Shown in pieces: positions 12,220-19,470 of a stretch of DNA of 64,000 nt (within the stretch, counting starts at the first letter, position 1; each line of letters begins with the position of its first letter). The position numbers and the translations under genes are program-made. Source of the stretch: Flavobacterium aquatile LMG 4008 = ATCC 11947 (GTDB taxonomy: Bacteria; Bacteroidota; Bacteroidia; Flavobacteriales; Flavobacteriaceae); NCBI RefSeq assembly GCF_000757385.1, contig NZ_JRHH01000001.1, positions 186,001 to 250,000 of the forward strand, given 5' to 3'. The notes beneath the pieces are model-generated. The model made no database searches, had not been told where the DNA came from, and was given only the letters and a program-made list of their open reading frames with translations.

Positions 12220-12343
12220 AACATTTTGTAGCTGGCAGAAGTGGCGAATTAAGGAAGCCTAAACTTTTGCTTAATGACTATTATCCAAGTACAAAACCAA
12301 TTGTAAATAAAGCCCAAGCCCGCCATTTTTGCAAACTGCTGTT
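12220..12343 (-). repeat. Array element A (124-bp structured cassette boundary)
   Basis: This is the leftmost clear element, bounded by AAC (12220) and GTT (12341). GTGGCG at +21 pairs with CGCCAT located 20 nt before GTT. The arms (GCTGGCAGAA and TTTTGCAAACTGC regions) pair with a few mismatches and a 4-nt bulge (ATTT) after AAC. The central ~74 nt differ from all other copies. The stop codon of the minus-strand lipoprotein gene lies 11 bp to the right. Strand is given as that of the associated gene. Confidence 0.8.
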
Positions 12344-12353
12344 GCCAGCAGGT

Positions 12354-13013
12354 TTAATTTATTTTTGTTATTTTCAATGTTGATGGAATATAAGTTTTCA
12401 AATCTTTAGTTTCATAACTAATTTCAATAGTTCCACCTGTAGCTTCTCCATCTTCATCAGTTAAACCTCTGATTCCAATCAAATAATTTCCATTTTTAGT
12501 TATGCTAATTTCATTTTCATTTCTACCAGAAATATATGAGTAATTTTTAATTTTAGATTTTATTTCAGAATCTAATTTTTTAGATTCACTTTCTGTTAAT
12601 TTTTCATAACCGTTTCCTAAATCAATTAAGTCATTATTTTTTATTTGTAATTTTTGATGTTGAACACAACCACCTGTTCCGCAAGTTTCCCAATAAAGTG
12701 AAATTATATTGTCTTTAAAACTTGTTATTTCTTTCAAATATTCTTCGTCATTTGCTCTCGCCGTTTCTTCTTTTGTTAAAACATATGTCATATTTTCAGA
12801 AATTTTATTTATTATTTCGTCAGAATACTTGGCAAATTCTTTTGAATAATCACTTTTTTTCAAAGTGTCAGATATTTGCGTAATTGTCATTTTTTCCTCA
12901 ACAATTGAATCTTTTTTAGTTTCTGTTGCAATTTCAGCTTTTTTCTCGTTTTCAGTATTTTTACAAGACAAAATTGACATTGCTAGTAAGCTACAAATAA
13001 TAATTTTTTTCAT
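12354..13013 (-). CDS. Hypothetical lipoprotein, first (leftmost) array cargo gene
   Basis: A 219-aa protein with a lipoprotein signal (CSLLAMSILSC, Cys17) followed by a charged Lys/Glu/Thr linker. The soluble part has a GTGGCVQHQK segment and a C-terminal beta-rich region (GIRGLTDEDGEATGGTIEISYE). I do not recognise the family. The stop codon is 11 bp from element A and the start is about 67 bp from element B. Its flanks are weakly complementary (GTTGCCAGCAGG at the right end of A against the bases before AAC of B, 10 of 12 pairs counting G-T). Confidence 0.75.
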   Translation of the reverse strand: MKKIIICSLLAMSILSCKNTENEKKAEIATETKKDSIVEEKMTITQISDTLKKSDYSKEFAKYSDEIINKISENMTYVLTKEETARANDEEYLKEITSFKDNIISLYWETCGTGGCVQHQKLQIKNNDLIDLGNGYEKLTESESKKLDSEIKSKIKNYSYISGRNENEISITKNGNYLIGIRGLTDEDGEATGGTIEISYETKDLKTYIPSTLKITKIN

Positions 13014-13079
13014 TTTAAATTAAGTTTTCTGGTTTATGTTTCGTTTTCTATTTCTACGGTTTTTTCAAAACTTGCTTAT

Positions 13080-13203
13080 AACGTTCTGGCGCTTGGCGAG
13101 GTTGCGAATTTCGGAACTGATTATTTTCAGTTAAAGATAAAAATTCTTGCGAAATGTAAACGTGAATTTACTACAAAATTCGCAATTGAGAGAAACGCCT
13201 GTT
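13080..13203 (-). repeat. Array element B (124 bp, main sequence class)
   Basis: Bounded by AAC (13080) and GTT (13201). GTTGCG begins at +21 and CGCAAT begins 20 nt before GTT. It shares most of its sequence, including the centre (GTTAAAGATAAAAATTC, AATGTAAACGTGAATTTAC), with elements C and F, so these three are one class. Its own right-arm spacer (TGAGAGAAACGCCT) differs from that of F. Confidence 0.88.
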
Positions 13204-13214
13204 AGTAGATGTTT

Positions 13215-14816
13215 TTATTTAGTAACAATAACTTTGACCATTTTATTACCATATGTAGTTTGAATTCTTACTATGTAAATGCCTGAATGTTCTATTGATG
13301 TAGAGAATTCTAATTGTAATGGCATTATTTCATTTATTTTTTGTCCTAATAGTGTAAATATTTCTACTTTTTCAACTAAGGAATTAGACTTAATTGTGAA
13401 ATTTCCATTGCTAGGATTTGGATATAGATAAGTGTCATTGCTATTAAAGTCGGAAATAGCTAATGGTAAGCACTCTGTAGTTGAAGTTAGGTTCGCTAAC
13501 GTAATAAGGTAAGTTGTTGTATCAGGTATTGATTGCGGCGTAAGTAATGGCGTTTGGGTAATAGCTATTGTAGGAACTGATAAGGTTATGTTTTCGTTAG
13601 TCATAGTTATGTTTGCATCGAATCCGTTGCATGCTGAGTTTCCCGAACTGTCAGTACTAAAAATTGTGGGTTGATCATTATCTATATTAATCCAATTTTG
13701 ATCGAATCCATTAACTGCAAAATACCATTCGTTTGCATTTTTTTCGTAAAGCTCACTGGCTGATGTACTATTTCTGTATCCCTTTGCCCAGATAAGATTC
13801 CCATTGGCTGTAATTTTGAGAACATAGTTTAAACGTACATTGTCAGTGTAATAAGTCTGGTCAATTATGGATACAACTATTTCACCCGAAGCCAATTCTT
13901 TAATGCCTCCAATGTAATCGCATGCTATTTTTTTGGCCCAAACTAAATTTCCGTTAGTATCAATTCTAAGAAGTAATCTTCCAAAGTTATTAGCATATTC
14001 TAAAATACAGCTAACTAATAAGTCGCCATTGCTAAGGATTTTGGTATTTGGAGCATTAACACTATCAGCTAAAAAAGTTGATGTACTTTGAAATTGTATT
14101 TCTCTTGCCCATAATAATATATCATTCTGATTGAATTTACATATTTGATTCCAAATTAAAGCAAAATAGTTTCCGGTACTTTCTTCTTTACTCATTGAGT
14201 AAACCGTCCCTCCTAATCCTTGCAGGATAGTGCCGTTCAATAAATTTCCATCCAAATCGAAATTCATTATGACCGGGACCGGGAATTGAGTTGGTGGTCC
14301 TTTCCGACCGCCAATTTTTATAGTGTTAGCATTTTTGAGAAAGGCATCGAACGGAGTAATAAAATCGTTGTTAGCAACTGACCCAATTTCTTTTGACCAA
14401 ATTGTCTGTCCCTGATCATTTAATTTATGGAGTACAAATCTAGGGCAATACCATTTTACTGAAGATGGCGAAGGTGATAGCTGAGCATAGAAGCAACCAG
14501 CTCTTGCAAAAAGAACTGAGCTTCCATCAGGGAAAGTAAGTACCCTTTTATTATTTAAATATCCTCCAAAACTTTTTTTCCAAATAGGAGCAAAATTAGC
14601 ATCAGTCTTAATAAGTACAGTACTATCGTCGCGTCCATTAGAAGAGTCGTAACTGTATTGTAATAAGTGTCCACCATCATATGTATCTATGATTGGAGCA
14701 AAATCGGCATTACTAACAAAGTCATTGAAAACATTGTATTTTCTGGTGACTTGAGCAGATGAAATCAAACTCAAAAAAAGTACTGTTAAATGGAAAAAAA
14801 TACTAGTGTTTTTCAT
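13215..14816 (-). CDS. T9SS-secreted hypothetical protein carried as an array unit
   Basis: A 533-aa protein with a signal peptide (HLTVLFLSLISSA|Q). The body has repeated short beta-strand units with W-A-K/R motifs (ILLWAREIQFQ, LVWAKKIACDY, LIWAKGYRNS), suggesting a beta-propeller-like fold. The last ~75 residues (LYPNPSNGNFTIKSNS ... YIVRIQTTYGNKMVKVIV) are a type A T9SS sorting domain. The stop is 11 bp from element B and the start 47 bp from element C. At 1.6 kb it is large for cassette cargo. Its unit flanks pair over 14 bp with three G-T wobbles. Confidence 0.82.
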   Translation of the reverse strand: MKNTSIFFHLTVLFLSLISSAQVTRKYNVFNDFVSNADFAPIIDTYDGGHLLQYSYDSSNGRDDSTVLIKTDANFAPIWKKSFGGYLNNKRVLTFPDGSSVLFARAGCFYAQLSPSPSSVKWYCPRFVLHKLNDQGQTIWSKEIGSVANNDFITPFDAFLKNANTIKIGGRKGPPTQFPVPVIMNFDLDGNLLNGTILQGLGGTVYSMSKEESTGNYFALIWNQICKFNQNDILLWAREIQFQSTSTFLADSVNAPNTKILSNGDLLVSCILEYANNFGRLLLRIDTNGNLVWAKKIACDYIGGIKELASGEIVVSIIDQTYYTDNVRLNYVLKITANGNLIWAKGYRNSTSASELYEKNANEWYFAVNGFDQNWINIDNDQPTIFSTDSSGNSACNGFDANITMTNENITLSVPTIAITQTPLLTPQSIPDTTTYLITLANLTSTTECLPLAISDFNSNDTYLYPNPSNGNFTIKSNSLVEKVEIFTLLGQKINEIMPLQLEFSTSIEHSGIYIVRIQTTYGNKMVKVIVTK

Positions 14817-14863
14817 AAGTTCTATTTGTTATATATACTTCCTTATTGCTATGAATATCTGCT

Positions 14864-14986
14864 AACGTTCCGGTGCTTGGCGCAGTAGCGGCTGCGTGAA
14901 CGATTATTTTCTGTTAAAGATAAAAATTCTTGCGAAATGTAAACGAGAATTTACTACAAAATTCGCAATTGCGAGAAACGGCTGTT
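14864..14986 (-). repeat. Array element C (123 bp, main sequence class)
   Basis: Bounded by AAC (14864) and GTT (14984). The centre and right arm are nearly the same as in elements B and F. The left arm carries GTAGCG-GCTGCG where B and F have GTTGCGAA. CGCAAT lies exactly 20 nt before GTT. The GNAT gene stop codon follows 11 bp after GTT. Confidence 0.88.
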
Positions 14987-14997
14987 ATGTGAAGTTA

Positions 14998-15534
14998 TTA
15001 TTCTAATCTTATCAAGTCAAAATACATAAATCTATGCTTTTCTTCTTCGTCAGAATTTAAAATAAATATGAAGTCGTTTTTTTGATACATTGCTATTTGT
15101 TTAGGTTGATTATAAGCATCTAATATCAATAATCTACAAGCAGGTTTGTGTTCAATAAATGTCCAGCCCTTTATGAAATCTAATAATTGATGGGACAACT
15201 TATTTCCTTGGTAATTTTTATCGATACCTAACCTTGCAATTTTAACAGCTGGATATTGTCGAATCCTCTTTTCATTTGGCAGTTTAATTTTTCTATGCAA
15301 CTTATTCCAAATGGAATTCTCGTAACCTAAATCATTTAAGCAATCGTTCGATATAGAAAAAAAGGCAACTATTACATTGCCTTCTTTGAATAAATATGTG
15401 TTAGTGATTTTTTCGTTTTGAAAATTTTTAGAATCTTCAAGAAAGAATTCATTTATTTCCTTGTCTTCACAATCAAAGTTATCTAAAACTTCATCATGAG
15501 TTAATGATAAAAATGCAAAATCTGATAAATCCAT
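14998..15534 (-). CDS. GNAT-family N-acetyltransferase, probable toxin of a toxin-antitoxin pair
   Basis: A 178-aa protein with a GNAT fold. The central segment VKIARLGIDKNYQGNKLSHQLLDFI contains beta4 and the acetyl-CoA binding loop (Q/R-x-x-G-x form), followed by LLILDAYNQPKQIAMYQKNDFIF, the usual beta5-alpha4 with Asn and Tyr positions. The compact length and N-terminal FDCEDKEINEFFL resemble TacT/AtaT-like GNAT toxins that acetylate aminoacyl-tRNA. A 51-aa gene ends 3 bp upstream on the same strand, as expected for an antitoxin. A housekeeping acetyltransferase is the alternative. Confidence 0.78.
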   Translation of the reverse strand: MDLSDFAFLSLTHDEVLDNFDCEDKEINEFFLEDSKNFQNEKITNTYLFKEGNVIVAFFSISNDCLNDLGYENSIWNKLHRKIKLPNEKRIRQYPAVKIARLGIDKNYQGNKLSHQLLDFIKGWTFIEHKPACRLLILDAYNQPKQIAMYQKNDFIFILNSDEEEKHRFMYFDLIRLE

Positions 15535-15537
15535 TTA

Positions 15538-15693
15538 CTATGCTTTTTTCGCAAGCACTTTACCTACTAGAGTAAAAATTTTGTCTTTTTTAGCTTCAGA
15601 AATTTTATTTGTTTTACTAGTAGATATGACAGCATTGAATTTTTTAGATTCTTTACCTTTTACAACCGGAGTAATTTTAATTGTTGTTGCCAT
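15538..15693 (-). CDS. 51-aa small protein, candidate antitoxin for the adjacent GNAT protein
   Basis: A short gene read directly from the minus strand: ATG at 15693-15691, TAG at 15540-15538. The product begins MATTIKITPVVKGKESKK and ends KIFTLVGKVLAKKA. It is strongly basic (about 13 Lys), with an N-terminal beta-like strand and C-terminal amphipathic helix. Only 3 bp separate its stop from the GNAT start, so the two are translated together. An antitoxin that binds DNA and the acetyltransferase is the likely role, by analogy with GNAT toxin operons. I do not recognise the family. Confidence 0.75.
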   Translation of the reverse strand: MATTIKITPVVKGKESKKFNAVISTSKTNKISEAKKDKIFTLVGKVLAKKA

Positions 15694-15728
15694 AATTAAT
15701 AATTTTAGTAAAAATATAATTTTCTTTG

Positions 15729-15736
15729 CAAATATA
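15729..15736 (-). promoter_or_regulatory. Candidate -7 box for the GNAT/51-aa operon
   Basis: TATATTTG on the minus strand matches the Bacteroidota TAnnTTTG -7 consensus and lies 36-43 bp upstream of the 51-aa gene start. No clear TTG is seen at -33. This unit has the longest leader of the array (about 94 bp), so it may carry its own promoter. Confidence 0.45.
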
Positions 15737-15787
15737 CAAATTTTGGACCATTTTCATTTTTATGCGTTCTAAATAATAATTTCACAT

Positions 15788-15910
15788 AACGTTTGGCGGC
15801 TTGCAGAAGTTGCGAACTTCGTGACCGTTTTTTTTCTACTAAGATAGAATTTCCTGCGAAAGAAATTTGTCAATTTTGCAAAATTCTCGCAATTTCTGCA
15901 AACCGCTGTT
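15788..15910 (-). repeat. Array element D (123 bp, second sequence class)
   Basis: Bounded by AAC (15788) and GTT (15908). The arms are the best-paired of the set: CGGCTTGCAGAAGTTGCG pairs with CGCAATTTCTGCAAACCG at 17 of 18 positions (one G-T, one C/A mismatch), then a GTTT bulge and AAC/GTT close the stem. The centre (CCGTTTTTTTTCTACTAAG, CCTGCGAAAGAAATTTG) is unlike elements B, C and F. Confidence 0.88.
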
Positions 15911-15921
15911 GTGAGCAGTAC

Positions 15922-16707
15922 TTATATTAAATTGTTATAATCAATTTTTGCGAACCTTTCTGTTTCTGTTTTTAGTTTTGACCAATCAAAATTATATAAT
16001 TCTTCGTCTTTCCAATCGTCCGGAAAATCTACAATTAAGTAATTTCCAATTCCAAAACCGCCACCAAAGTAGGAATCTGTATTTACTCCTAAACTTTGAC
16101 CGCCAGGCATAAAATCTTCAGTTCTAAATTGTGAAGAAAGAATAACGCATAATCCTGAGTATGCATCAATTAAATTACCAAAATTTGCCTTATCAAAACT
16201 ATGAACTCTATCATGTTTAGATTGGTTATATGCTTGATACCATGATAATGGAAGATTATTTTTCCACGCTTCAAATGGCTTTCTTATATTTAATTGTCCT
16301 TTCCAAAACGGTAATTCAATCCCGTAATCATCTAAATGGTGTGTTTTATTCACAATTTTAAAATCGTCAATTTTCCAATTTTTTTCAGAACGAAGTTTCC
16401 CAAATTTATCTTTTGGATCAAAAATATTTTCTCTTAGAATAGCTTTGAAGTTGGCTTCAACTTCAATACAAATTCTAATTAATAATTCGTGAATTCTAAA
16501 CGAATAAGTCGCATTATTAATATCGGAAGGTTCAACATATTCAAATAGTTTAATGACATCTTCTTGAATTATTGAAAAAGCTCTCGTGTAATATTCAGGA
16601 TTTTCGGAATAACTGCGGTCAACAATATACGCCCAACTACTATATCCTGAATTGGGGCCAGCTTTTACTGGTCGATAATTTCTGTGAAAAGGTTTGTCAA
16701 AACTCAT
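15922..16707 (-). CDS. Hypothetical 261-aa protein, array cargo (weak HEPN-like features)
   Basis: No signal peptide or TM. The middle is mostly helical (IIQEDVIKLFEYVEPSD, SFRIHELLIRICIEVEANFKAIL), followed by AYNQSKHDRVHSFDKAN. An N-x-x-K-H motif in a helical protein occurs in some HEPN-type proteins, but the classical R-x4-6-H catalytic motif is not clear. The C-terminus is Gly/aromatic-rich (SYFGGGFGIGNYLIV). I do not recognise the family. The stop is 11 bp from element D. The unit flanks pair over 15 bp with a single G-T wobble. Confidence 0.72.
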   Translation of the reverse strand: MSFDKPFHRNYRPVKAGPNSGYSSWAYIVDRSYSENPEYYTRAFSIIQEDVIKLFEYVEPSDINNATYSFRIHELLIRICIEVEANFKAILRENIFDPKDKFGKLRSEKNWKIDDFKIVNKTHHLDDYGIELPFWKGQLNIRKPFEAWKNNLPLSWYQAYNQSKHDRVHSFDKANFGNLIDAYSGLCVILSSQFRTEDFMPGGQSLGVNTDSYFGGGFGIGNYLIVDFPDDWKDEELYNFDWSKLKTETERFAKIDYNNLI

Positions 16708-16745
16708 AATTTATTTTATCACTTTCGTCCGATAGTATTGCTCAC

Positions 16746-16868
16746 AACGGTCTCGGCTATGAGTAGTTGCGTGGGTTAGCGATTAACTGTGCAAGTACAC
16801 ACCAAACTGAAAATCCGCGAGGATTTTCAGAGGTAGGTGAGAACAAGCAATTACTTATAGCCATTGTT
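16746..16868 (-). repeat. Array element E (123 bp, third sequence class with internal perfect hairpin)
   Basis: Bounded by AAC (16746) and GTT (16866). The left arm CGGCTATGAGTAGTTGC pairs with GCAATTACTTATAGCC. AGCAAT is again 20 nt before GTT. The centre contains a perfect 10-bp hairpin at 16807-16830 (CTGAAAATCC, GCGA, GGATTTTCAG) not present in other copies. Despite the different sequence the total length is the same. Confidence 0.86.
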
Positions 16869-16881
16869 GGCAGTTCGTTGT

Positions 16882-17769
16882 TTATTCTTTCGGTTTGTTC
16901 AAAAACTTTTCAATCATTGGCACAACAAATTCACTTTCTTTCGTGTCAGATTTTAATGTTGTGATTTCTCCAATATATTCTCCGTGTCCACCTGGGATTA
17001 TTGCCAGTTCAGAGTTTTCAATTTGTCTGTGCAATTCAATGGCGTGTTCTAGTGTAATAATGTCTTTGTCGCCAATGATGATTAATGTCGATGCCTTAAT
17101 GGACTTTATCTGCTCATCTGGAATATCTTTGAAATTCACCATTCGCTTTGCATCTCGGTCGTGCATTACCTGTAAACCACTTGTATCTGTTGCAACTTGT
17201 TTGTATGCCGTTTTCAGTTGTTCGGGCATATTTTCCAATTTCGCTTGTTCCATAAAACCCCAAAACCATTCGGGAACTCCGCTTCGTTTAGCAAGGGCAG
17301 AACCCAAGACAATTTTATTTACAATTTCAGGGTGTCTAATGGCGATTTGCAAAGTGGTTGTCCCGCCATTGCTAAACCCGAAAAAATCCGCTTTGTCAAT
17401 GTTTAAGTTTTTCAGAAGTGTTGCAATATCGTCCGCATCTTGTTCAAACGTTAAGTCTGCGTTTCGGTCGCTTGTCCGTCCGTGTGCTTGAAGTTCAACC
17501 GCAACTACCTTTCTGTTTTTTGCGAATAATGGAATAATTTTTTCAAAGTTGGACTGAATTGTCGAACCACCACCGTGAATGAGGACAAGCGGTTGGCCTT
17601 GTCCGTAAATCTCATAATACATTTTCAGTCCGTTCACTTCGGAATATCCGCTGTCAAAAGTCAGTTCATTTGTCGTTGCTACTTCCATTCTTTTAGTTTC
17701 TGTTTTGTCTTCGTTACACGCTGTTAAAGTGAAAAGCGTCAAACCGAAAATTGTAATTATACCTCTCAT
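16882..17769 (-). CDS. Alpha/beta-hydrolase, lipoprotein, array cargo
   Basis: A 295-aa protein with a lipoprotein signal ending in LFTLTAC (Cys18), so it probably sits in the periplasm or on the membrane surface. The hydrolase fold is clear: oxyanion region LVLIHGGGST, nucleophile elbow GFSNGG (Ser near 139), acid GDKD near 236 and catalytic His in GGHGEY near 260. The substrate cannot be told; esterase or C-C hydrolase/haloperoxidase-like activities are typical. Its base composition looks less AT-rich than its neighbours, which fits a recent arrival. The stop is 13 bp from element E. Confidence 0.88.
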   Translation of the reverse strand: MRGIITIFGLTLFTLTACNEDKTETKRMEVATTNELTFDSGYSEVNGLKMYYEIYGQGQPLVLIHGGGSTIQSNFEKIIPLFAKNRKVVAVELQAHGRTSDRNADLTFEQDADDIATLLKNLNIDKADFFGFSNGGTTTLQIAIRHPEIVNKIVLGSALAKRSGVPEWFWGFMEQAKLENMPEQLKTAYKQVATDTSGLQVMHDRDAKRMVNFKDIPDEQIKSIKASTLIIIGDKDIITLEHAIELHRQIENSELAIIPGGHGEYIGEITTLKSDTKESEFVVPMIEKFLNKPKE

Positions 17770-17818
17770 TTATGTTGTCCTTTTTTTGTTTGTCTTGTCG
17801 TTCTTCACAATGACTGCC

Positions 17819-17942
17819 AACGTTCCGGCGCTTGGCGAGGTTGCGAAGTTCGGAACCGATTATTTTCTGTTAAAGATAAAATTTCATGCGAAATGTAAAC
17901 GTGAATTTACTACAAAATTCGCAATCTTGCCAAACGACTGTT
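17819..17942 (-). repeat. Array element F (124 bp, main sequence class)
   Basis: Bounded by AAC (17819) and GTT (17940), and very similar to element B over its whole length. The left arm TTGGCGAGGTTGCG pairs with CGCAATCTTGCCAA over 14 positions, two of them G-T on the plus strand. A C/A mismatch and a GTTC bulge follow, then AAC/GTT. Confidence 0.9.
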
Positions 17943-17952
17943 AGCTGACGTT

Positions 17953-18549
17953 TTAACTAAGCGCAATAAACTGATATTTTGACTTTAACTCTGCATAAAA
18001 ATTACCTTCTTGATAAAGAAGATTCGTAGATTGGAAGTCGTCTTCATTTTCATTTATGAAAAGGTTTAATATCTTTTTACTTTCAAACTTCACAATTATC
18101 CCAACGTCGGCCATTATTACTTTTTCTATTTTAATATTAATCTCTGTAGGTAAATCTTCAGTTGGATTTATTTGGGAGCTCTCTGATTCAAAGAGATTTT
18201 TTTTGATTTCTCTTACTTCAGTAAAATATAATTTTGTCTTAACCATTTCTATTTCTGATATTTCCTCATTTTCAACCAATAATTCGCTTCCCGATTGAGC
18301 AACAAACTTTTCATCTTTAAAGATAATTTGTGTCTTCATAGCATATTGAGTCTGAATAGTATCTTCTTCTTTGCTTTTTGAAGATTGAGAAAGATTTATT
18401 TTTTCGGCAAGTTTAATTTCTAGTAAAAAGTGAAAGCTTCCATATTCAAAGACATAGCAAATATTTTCGAACCAAATGCGGATTGGTGAATTGTCCTTGA
18501 TATATTTTAAATGGAATAATTCTTCGTCGGAGAAAAGATAAGTTTTCAT
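17953..18549 (-). CDS. Hypothetical 198-aa protein, last (rightmost) array cargo gene
   Basis: No signal peptide. The start (MKTYLFSDEELFHLKYIKDNSPIRIWFENICYVFEYGSFHFLLEI) and the alternating strand pattern suggest a compact beta-rich cytoplasmic protein; a charged Glu/Lys/Ser loop lies near residues 58-75. I do not recognise the family. The stop is 11 bp from element F. The start is only about 24 bp from the AAC at 18573, so there is no room for a full promoter inside the unit. Its flanks pair over 15 bp with one wobble. Confidence 0.72.
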   Translation of the reverse strand: MKTYLFSDEELFHLKYIKDNSPIRIWFENICYVFEYGSFHFLLEIKLAEKINLSQSSKSKEEDTIQTQYAMKTQIIFKDEKFVAQSGSELLVENEEISEIEMVKTKLYFTEVREIKKNLFESESSQINPTEDLPTEINIKIEKVIMADVGIIVKFESKKILNLFINENEDDFQSTNLLYQEGNFYAELKSKYQFIALS

Positions 18550-18563
18550 GGTTACGGTTAAAA

Positions 18564-18655
18564 ATGTCAGCTAACTTGTATATATAAGCCATAAATCACA
18601 CATATCTACCTTTTAGTAGGTGGCTTTGTGCCATAAATTGGCTATTCTATTTCTT
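18564..18655. other. Right-hand end of the array: half site plus hairpins
   Basis: GTCAGCTAAC (18566-18575) is the perfect inverted copy of GTTAGCTGAC at 17940-17949, so it closes the last gene unit. The sequence to the right does not continue as a normal element: GTTGCG is not found at +21. Instead AAGCC...GGCTT with inner CTAC...GTAG (about 18587-18625) and TGGC-TTTGT-GCCA can form small hairpins. In integron terms this is where an attI-like site would be expected. Confidence 0.55.
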
Positions 18656-18665
18656 TCCAAATATA

Positions 18666-19022
18666 TTAAATATTATCTTCCTTGCGCAGTTCCTTTACAA
18701 ATTCTTTCATGCGCTGGAGTTCGTTGGGTGTCATTTCTATTAACTCTTTTATCAAGTTTATGTCGGTTTGCTTTACCCATTCTTTTAGCGGTGTGTTGTC
18801 TAGACTGGTGCTGTCTTTGGGCAGTTCTATGGCTAGTAATTCCTTAGGTGTGCAGTTTAAGTAGGTGCAAAACTTGTAGAGGTCGGCAAGGTCAATTGTC
18901 TTTTGGGTGCCGTTAAGTATTTTTTGGGCACGCGTTCTCGGGATTCCCATCTTTAATAACTGAAAATAAGGTCTCAAAATTCCTTTTTGAAGGAACATTT
19001 CTTTCACTTGTAGTACAAACAT
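18666..19022 (-). CDS. XRE-family helix-turn-helix regulator
   Basis: A 118-aa DNA-binding protein. Residues 20-65 (FQLLKMGIPRTRAQKILNGTQKTIDLADLYKFCTYLNCTPKELL) form an XRE helix-turn-helix, in which the AQKILNG helix would read DNA. A helical C-terminus (LIKELIEMTPNELQRMKEFVKELRKE) probably dimerises. Ten tandem palindromic 21-bp units lie just upstream of its start (19062-19271), which suggests that it binds there and controls itself. It lies next to the right end of the cassette array, but there is no direct evidence linking the two. Confidence 0.85.
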   Translation of the reverse strand: MFVLQVKEMFLQKGILRPYFQLLKMGIPRTRAQKILNGTQKTIDLADLYKFCTYLNCTPKELLAIELPKDSTSLDNTPLKEWVKQTDINLIKELIEMTPNELQRMKEFVKELRKEDNI

Positions 19023-19061
19023 AATGGCCTAATTTAATGATACAATAGTCAAATATACGAA

Positions 19062-19271
19062 AATTGTCGTTTGACAACCCAAAATTGTTATTTAACAACC
19101 TATAATTGTTATTTGGCAGTACAAAATTGTTATTTAGCAACCTATAATTGCTATATGACAACCCATACTTGCTATCTGACAATCCATACTTGCTATCTGA
19201 CAACCAATTATTGCTATATGATAACCCAAACTTGTTATCTGACGACCTAAACTTGTTATTTGAAAACTAAA
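19062..19271. repeat. Ten tandem 21-bp repeats, each with an internal palindrome
   Basis: Ten uninterrupted 21-bp units, read from 19062 to 19271. The core is TTGTTATTTAACAAC and variants (TTGCTATCTGACAAC, TTGTCGTTTGACAAC). Each core is near-palindromic (TTGTTA/TAACAA). The period of 21 bp is two helical turns, so all sites face the same side of DNA. There are no spacers, so this is not a CRISPR array. It resembles an iteron or operator array for the adjacent XRE protein. I see no gene in 19272-19470. Confidence 0.9.
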
Positions 19272-19470
19272 ACAGCCAAAAAGCACAATTAGAATACCTT
19301 TTTTATTGATTTAGGGTGTATATAGTATAGCTAAATAGGAATTAATTATCAAGTTGCTCATTTGTAGAATTGTATTATATTTGACTTTAATTAAAAAAAT
19401 CTAGCTTGACAATTGATTTTCGGCAGATTAGACTTGGGTTTGTCAATCTTTACTAAATATAAATTGAATT

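Follow-up and report, generated by a model that had tools for sequence, protein, structure and literature searches.

The DNA considered here is a 64,000-nucleotide (nt) stretch of the Flavobacterium aquatile LMG 4008 = ATCC 11947 genome (contig NZ_JRHH01000001.1, positions 186,001 to 250,000), hereafter the window, which carries an array of integron-like gene cassettes. Six elements of 124, 124, 123, 123, 123 and 124 bp, each beginning with AAC and ending with GTT, alternate in this array with minus-strand genes (Table 1); a preliminary description had reported this arrangement, and its coordinates and element ends are confirmed. The seven genes that it counted in six units are likewise present, namely six open reading frames (ORFs) of 178-533 aa and one of 51 aa. 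The description had placed the stop codons 11-15 bp from the GTT of the element; the proximity holds, and the distance, measured from the end of the gene to the right of each element, is 10-13 nt.

Table 1. Features of the array and of its start (window positions; for elements, the strand predicted to fold better is given)
Feature	Positions	Strand	Remarks
Element E1	12220..12343	+	attC-like site of cassette 6
Element E2	13080..13203	+	attC-like site of cassette 5
Element E3	14864..14986	+	attC-like site of cassette 4
Element E4	15788..15910	+	attC-like site of cassette 3
Element E5	16746..16868	+	attC-like site of cassette 2; lowest score of the six under both covariance models
Element E6	17819..17942	+	attC-like site of cassette 1
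Gene of cassette 6 (12220-13079)	12354..13013	-	219-aa protein; weak, sub-cut-off lipoprotein-family match only
Gene of cassette 5 (13080-14863)	13215..14816	-	533-aa protein with type IX secretion sorting tail
Gene 2 of cassette 4 (14864-15787)	14998..15534	-	178-aa GNAT-like acetyltransferase; Pfam score below cut-off
Gene 1 of cassette 4	15538..15693	-	51-aa basic ORF
Gene of cassette 3 (15788-16745)	15922..16707	-	261-aa orphan
Gene of cassette 2 (16746-17818)	16882..17769	-	295-aa alpha/beta hydrolase
Gene of cassette 1 (17819-18575)	17953..18549	-	198-aa orphan; no match in Pfam, NCBIfam or PADLOC
attI-like attachment site	18573..18635	-	window array start; predicted crossover before GTT at 18575, between TATATACAA and GTTAGCTGACA
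Candidate promoter box	18658..18665	-	TATATTTG, matching TANNTTTG; 90 nt upstream of the crossover
Helix-turn-helix (HTH) gene (PF13443)	18666..19022	-	118 aa; lies where relatives carry an integrase
HTH-attI module	18572..19303	-	0.73 kb; ends at or a few bases past the crossover

The elements are predicted to form hairpins, with a stem laid out as AAC, a 5-nt spacer, 4 bp, a mismatch and 14 bp. In the six window elements, 91.1% of the cells of this stem are paired, compared with 28-51% for slid controls, and double-sided changes occur at nine of the 21 pairs. When 135 elements (132 distinct) were aligned to R1, a covariance model built from the six window elements, 95.4% of cells in the distinct elements were paired (36.9-50.3% for slid controls), double changes were found at 18 of 21 pairs, and there were 628 doubly changed cells against a shuffled mean of 178, the fitting to R1 itself being a bias toward structure. 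By this covariation, the element hairpin is under selection. The 11th pair of the inner arm (L) is a G.T wobble in 127 of the 132 elements, with variable pairs beside it, and at 17 other stem pairs G.T exceeds A.C by 74 to 18 on the folded strand. The strand with the better computed folding energy is the one opposite the genes; for attC sites, a passage in PMC8946536 describes the bottom strand as the recombinogenic one.

As for the cargo, PADLOC returned no defence match for the seven window proteins. In cassette 4 (14998-15693), the arrangement of the basic 51-aa ORF and the GNAT-like acetyltransferase resembles a toxin-antitoxin pair, and the small ORF is a possible antitoxin-like partner.

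Cassette ends and movement of units

The ends of the units carry a second pairing arm. The flank after one element pairs with the flank before the next; the two ends of each unit are thus complementary over 15 bp, as is observed in five of the six window units. Neither these ends nor the attI-like site at the array start (18575) figured in the preliminary description. In the full set of 359 elements from 72 loci, which provides 251 neighbouring element pairs, the cassette ends match at five or more of the seven positions 4-10 in 233 of the 251 pairs. The two flanks of one and the same element reach this level in 50 of 322 cases. Pairing of R arms within the site as it stands in the array was rejected, since the flanks of an element match each other at the shuffled level. 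Matching amounts to 92-96% at positions 4-9, 73% at position 10 and 82-90% at positions 12-15, and drops to a background of 13-23% at positions 16-20. Position 11 stands apart, being identical in 1% of pairs; here 220 of the 251 have A at the start and G at the end, that is, a G.T pair on the bottom strand. The ends are specific to the cassette, with 135 distinct 7-mers among the 251. An earlier set of 105 pairs contained four mismatched ones, one spanning attI (L048) and the others lying in L087, in L100 and at the last unit of the window. This last unit (12344-13079, cassette 6) is the sole window unit with mismatched ends (4/7) and is perhaps a fusion after the loss of a site.

Because the ends of a unit are complementary and the flanks of its element are unpaired, the 15-bp R arm being written in the cassette's own ends, it is in the circular cassette alone that the site appears whole. 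The circular site was modelled with DNA parameters for the 233 cassettes with matching ends, and the bottom strand was more stable in 207 of them, or in 223 when the arms alone were considered. Moreover, the L and R arms share a common outward layout, G-N-T-(R or W)-NNN-G-NN-(G.T wobble)-mostly T, with G at position 1, T at 3, variable bases at 5-7, G at 8, variable bases at 9-10, the wobble at 11 and then mostly T; position 2 is T in the R arm and a C.A mismatch in the L arm. Two recombinase protomers bound to inverted arms would require such a shared layout.

In other respects, the borders depart from classical sites. GTTR is kept at all 251 unit starts, and the classical R boxes are rare: GTTRRRY is found at 13 starts and fails at the other 238, and RYYYAAC fits 11 of the 251 ends, in agreement with the non-classical character that the preliminary description ascribed to the sites. 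Gene orientation is nearly uniform, the longest ORF lying in gene orientation in 102 of the 112 cassettes having an ORF of at least 50 aa (120 examined), and the median distance from stop to AAC in cassettes across arrays is 13 nt.

Comparison of copies points to movement of single units. In four families of within-genome copies (G381, G011, G413 and G327), the gene body and the element following it are shared with an identity of 0.97-1.0, and for three of these families the element before the body shows no more than random identity. Copies made up of a body and its 3' element are consistent with units being excised and inserted at G^TT together with their 3' site. In addition, homologous units have different neighbours in different arrays.

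The array-linked recombinase, attI and their distribution

Tyrosine recombinases were sought in 13 element-bearing relatives and in two relatives without elements. In eight of the 13 (G005, G007, G011, G015, G018, G021, G022 and G024), a recombinase of one family adjoins an array. It sits at the gene-oriented 5' end of the array, except in G015, where it is several genes and ~3.7 kb away. Most of these array integrases have ~350 aa and a small extra N-terminal alpha/beta domain (predicted; mean predicted local distance difference test score 78.9, seven sequences); two of ~580-590 aa have longer N-termini (L097 6691-8457 and L105 3268-5010), with the crossover 36-44 nt from the stop. A side observation concerns G010, a one-contig relative whose arrays (L096, L100) have no adjoining array integrase, as in the window's genome.

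The family is related to IntI and is distinguishable from it. The integron-integrase model TIGR02249 scores three members, in two stretches, at 211.8, 203.8 and 216.7 bits, below its cut-off of 265, and the NCBIfam XerA model gives 193-218 bits for three array integrases. The best solved relatives are V. cholerae IntI4 (2a3v, 142.6 bits; residues ~206-245 unmatched) and then XerC/XerA-like enzymes. An alignment and a tree were made from 36 array integrases, 21 IntI and 2 Xer-like enzymes, four broken or truncated frames being left out. In the alignment, the IntI insertion comprises 0 residues in all 36 array integrases and 41 in each of the 21 IntI. In the tree, IntI forms a single clade (100/100) with all 36 array integrases outside it, seven of which branch nearer IntI with modest support (94/79 and 92/65). 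Foldseek returned Xer and IntI folds, and no weight is put on this because the global superposition was poor (root-mean-square deviation about 14-21, top 20). According to PMC9668308, IntI is defined by this additional domain and surveys recognise integrases by it; surveys of this kind would miss the array integrases, which are without it. A recombinase classification states in one part that the insertion is not fully conserved in the integron-like subgroup (PMC8138268).

Array starts were compared by placing the crossover, i.e., the start of the first cassette, at the best match to the cassette end (at least 11/14). It could be placed in 25 of 27 loci including the window (24 of 26 integrase loci); L151 and L097 were left unplaced by end matching, and L097 was placed by an earlier analysis. 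In 15 of the 24 placed integrase loci, the predicted crossover falls 89-104 nt past the integrase stop, mostly with TATAWACRA before GTT, and the off-pattern cases are the plasmid locus L115 (276 nt from the stop) and a few others. Integrase and cassettes point in the same direction at 23 of the 24. In the sole exception among placed loci, L106 4491-5558 (G021), the array integrase is divergent from the array. The window sequence TATATTTG matches TANNTTTG, which we take to be the Bacteroidota -7 promoter box, and likely serves as the cassette promoter. This box occurs at -60 to -120 in 16 of 30 attI regions, 14 times at -85 to -92, compared with 1.2 in shuffles.

In the window's genome, the platform in front of the array is the HTH-attI module. 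It exists in three near-identical copies, each leading its own array; the two further copies (G000 C3, near 578.9k and 674.9k; L048 near 10868 and L049 near 8816) have 92-93% identity, and a broken fourth HTH piece lies at G000 C3:583305-583451. A run of 21-bp repeats precedes the window module (19039-19269), with similar repeats before the other two copies, and these could be binding sites for the HTH protein. By DNA similarity, the window attI was found in two of 60 genomes of relatives, its own included, and attI sequences are thus lineage-specific. In G005, two attI copies without an adjoining integrase gene bracket cassettes (L192, 10817 and 6024, minus strand), just downstream of genes that are presumably thrA-thrB-thrC.

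The elements are widespread. At E<=0.1, R1 locates them at 20 separate positions of the window's genome (22 matches, two of which read one of these positions on the reverse strand) and in 24 of 40 sampled relatives' genomes including its own, with up to 53 per genome. R2, a covariance model built from the 135 elements, detected them in at least 161 of 395 Bacteroidota genomes, spread over 91 of 170 genera, and the longest arrays number 20 elements; 161 is a floor because eight candidates were scored per genome. Sixty-seven of the 161 belong to the window's class. The array-integrase alignment has matches in 118 of the same 395 genomes at E<=1e-55, giving 97 genomes with both, 21 with the integrase only, 64 with elements only and 213 with neither (Fisher p 2e-28, genomes counted as independent). 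At E<=1e-70 the numbers are 94, 20, 67 and 214, and 39 of the 41 genomes with an integrase match at E<=1e-110 have elements. Linkage extends to further loci, as an element lies within the ~1.5 kb flank in 17 of 27 further integrase loci, these being the 30 best integrase matches minus three with broken frames. Around 20 canonical IntI genes (~1.5 kb), R2 found no element at E<=0.1, the best match being 0.13, and the idea that R2 merely detects canonical attC sites was therefore rejected.

Canonical IntI scores above the TIGR02249 cut-off in 105 of the 395 genomes, of which a single one (G075) belongs to the window's class, its genus, family and order being without any. Set against the 67 of 161 element genomes in that class, this means that the phylum holds two systems. 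Nine genomes, all outside the window's class, have both a canonical IntI and a strong array-integrase match of more than 390 bits (G040, G045, G054, G136, G195, G301, G322, G332 and G341), and one cell can thus harbour both systems. Plasmids, too, can carry the system, as an array integrase and six elements lie on a Chryseobacterium plasmid typed as non-mobilizable (L115 14956-28711). The same plasmid stretch has an IS110 transposase, a group II intron gene and other transposase genes.

Interpretation and comparison with known systems

These data are best explained, with a probability of about 0.85, by units captured at the predicted attI by an integron-like tyrosine recombinase, an enzyme present in relatives and not found in the window's own genome. 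In silico, there is a strong case for the anatomy, the linkage of site and enzyme and the movement of single units; from the same sequences we infer recombination, strand choice and promoter function. An excised cassette would fold on its bottom strand into the L and R arms and bind two recombinase protomers; it would then be cut at AA^C (G^TT on the top strand) and joined to attI, where it would come under the promoter ~90 nt upstream. The G.T wobbles, which are A.C mismatches on the other strand, would help to set strand choice and thereby gene orientation.

Several observations weigh against this interpretation, first of all those in the window's own genome. The preliminary description saw no integrase, which holds for the window; the genome, 99.98% complete, has 11 tyrosine recombinases, none of which was recognised as a member of the array family (none at E<=1e-55). 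Any of the 11 may act as a helper. Six of them have a match to the array-integrase alignment at E<=0.001; the strongest, at 160.2 bits, matches from position 82 onward and lacks the N-terminal domain. A search for array-integrase remnants in the window and eight other stretches of this genome found none (best E 0.24). As no family recombinase was found, activity of the window array on its own is not expected, and with an HTH-attI module as its platform it probably either lies dormant or depends on a recombinase acting in trans. Among the 13 relatives, no family enzyme stands beside the elements of G010, G012, G013 and G020, and the recombinase of G009 lies at a contig end in a stretch holding no element. 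Phylum-wide, 64 of the 161 element genomes have no detected integrase, some of the weaker integrase matches are enzymes of ~280-310 aa that lack the N-terminal domain and may or may not be linked to arrays, and relatedness is not taken into account in the co-occurrence test. For the tree, the program issued a long-branch warning. Furthermore, the R arm is unpaired in arrays, a difficulty for any account of how a cassette leaves an array.

The remaining difficulty lies in the sites themselves. In seven of 16 pairs with homologous bodies (78-99.9% identical), the following elements differ, with identities of 0.73-0.79 where random pairs have a median of 0.75, and the idea that gene and element always move together was rejected on this account. 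One of the seven pairs lies within a single genome (G009). In another of the seven, L099-12 and L102-2, bodies from two species are 99.9% identical over 1315 nt and the elements on both sides are unrelated. Such differing sites would result either from crossovers that also occur at the AAC border or from replacement of the element by homologous exchange. These pairs are also what would be expected if the gene body alone were mobile, in the manner of a transposon with 15-bp inverted ends, with the hairpins as separate fillers or targets. This is nevertheless very unlikely, as the four within-genome families copy the following element along with the body and in three of the four have a random preceding one, the transposase search, which covered the six window units, came up empty, and the ends vary from unit to unit, unlike those of a transposon family.

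An ordinary integron remnant, i.e., a cluster of attC sites lacking integron-integrases (CALIN) with divergent sites made by a canonical IntI in the lineage, would account for the general anatomy, and canonical IntI does occur in the phylum at the frequency given above. It is quite unlikely in view of the distribution of that IntI, all but one of whose genomes fall outside the window's class, the empty surroundings of the 20 canonical IntI genes, the lack of the insertion in every aligned array enzyme and the scarcity of GTTRRRY. Least credible of all is that the elements, which are after all predicted hairpins near stop codons, are non-mobilising dispersed repeats or structured RNA 3' ends, such as repetitive extragenic palindrome (REP)-like sequences or terminators. 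Against it stand their co-occurrence and linkage with a specific recombinase and attI, the matching ends of each unit, the single movement of units, and an Rfam scan that gave no family above chance and one unrelated chance match. The capture of units by an integron-like recombinase therefore remains the preferred explanation, and the integron-like cassette system of the preliminary description is upheld at sequence level by the recombinase beside arrays in relatives, the conserved crossover site and the movement of single units. Its suggestion of a possible new family in Bacteroidota gains from the covariance-model search of the phylum and from a recombinase that is not IntI. Outcomes that would have spoken otherwise did not appear: the elements track single gene units, homologous units differ in neighbours across arrays, and neither Rfam nor a canonical IntI context explains the elements.

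We also lean, with some reserve, toward a broader proposal, in which the arrays would represent a second class of integron across Bacteroidota, older than or parallel to IntI, with an insertion-free recombinase, a substrate complete only in the circle, strand choice coded by one G.T wobble at pair 11 of each arm, and bodies and sites that can be exchanged separately; IntI would then perhaps be an insertion-bearing offshoot. Should the system indeed capture genes, a cassette system missed by IntI-based searches is widespread in a very common phylum, and a frequent path of gene exchange may have escaped notice. It would also offer a natural test of the purpose of the IntI insertion and of how the recombinase discriminates the folded strand, as well as a large stock of uncharacterised cassette genes and potentially a tool for inserting genes in a set order.

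With respect to known systems, a review lists Bacteroidota, in the section concerned, among the phyla with integrons (PMC8618304), and the only complete integron that a 2022 survey names for Bacteroidetes proper is that of Salinibacter ruber (PMC9024848). No description of the array system was found in the literature searched, which did not extend to preprints and most subscription papers, so that one may be in print. Like a CALIN, the window array is without its own recombinase gene; unlike one, it keeps an attI, present in three copies behind an HTH gene in the genome, and its sites fail the R-box consensus. Xer-type and 'integron-like' recombinases are close in sequence, V. cholerae IntI4 and XerC/XerA-like enzymes being the best solved relatives, but XerCD act on a fixed dif site, whereas array integrases add a predicted N-terminal domain, linkage to arrays and hairpin cassette sites. 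In the chromosomal integrons of Treponema, as described in part of PMC3607928, the integrase gene likewise points toward attI and the cassettes; those are published as intI integrons, whereas the array enzyme is not IntI.

The closest comparison is with IntI integrons. Common to both are tandem, mostly single-gene cassettes in one orientation with a hairpin site 3' of each gene, a bottom strand that folds better, a cassette boundary at G^TT, an attI that opens the array and follows a tyrosine recombinase gene (no such gene lies beside the window attI) and a likely promoter at attI. For classical attC sites, PMC8946536 mentions extrahelical bases among the features setting strand choice; array sites show a near-fixed G.T wobble and a C.A mismatch. 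The two differ in that the array recombinase is without the IntI insertion and outside the IntI clade, the R arm is 15 bp long, cassette-specific and self-complementary only in the circle, GTTR is kept where GTTRRRY is mostly absent, a near-constant G.T wobble occupies pair 11 of both arms, and the recombinase runs co-directionally with the cassettes in all but one of the placed loci. Judged by its sequences, the system works like an integron and is not an IntI integron, since it departs from these on three integrase criteria and on the R-box criterion.

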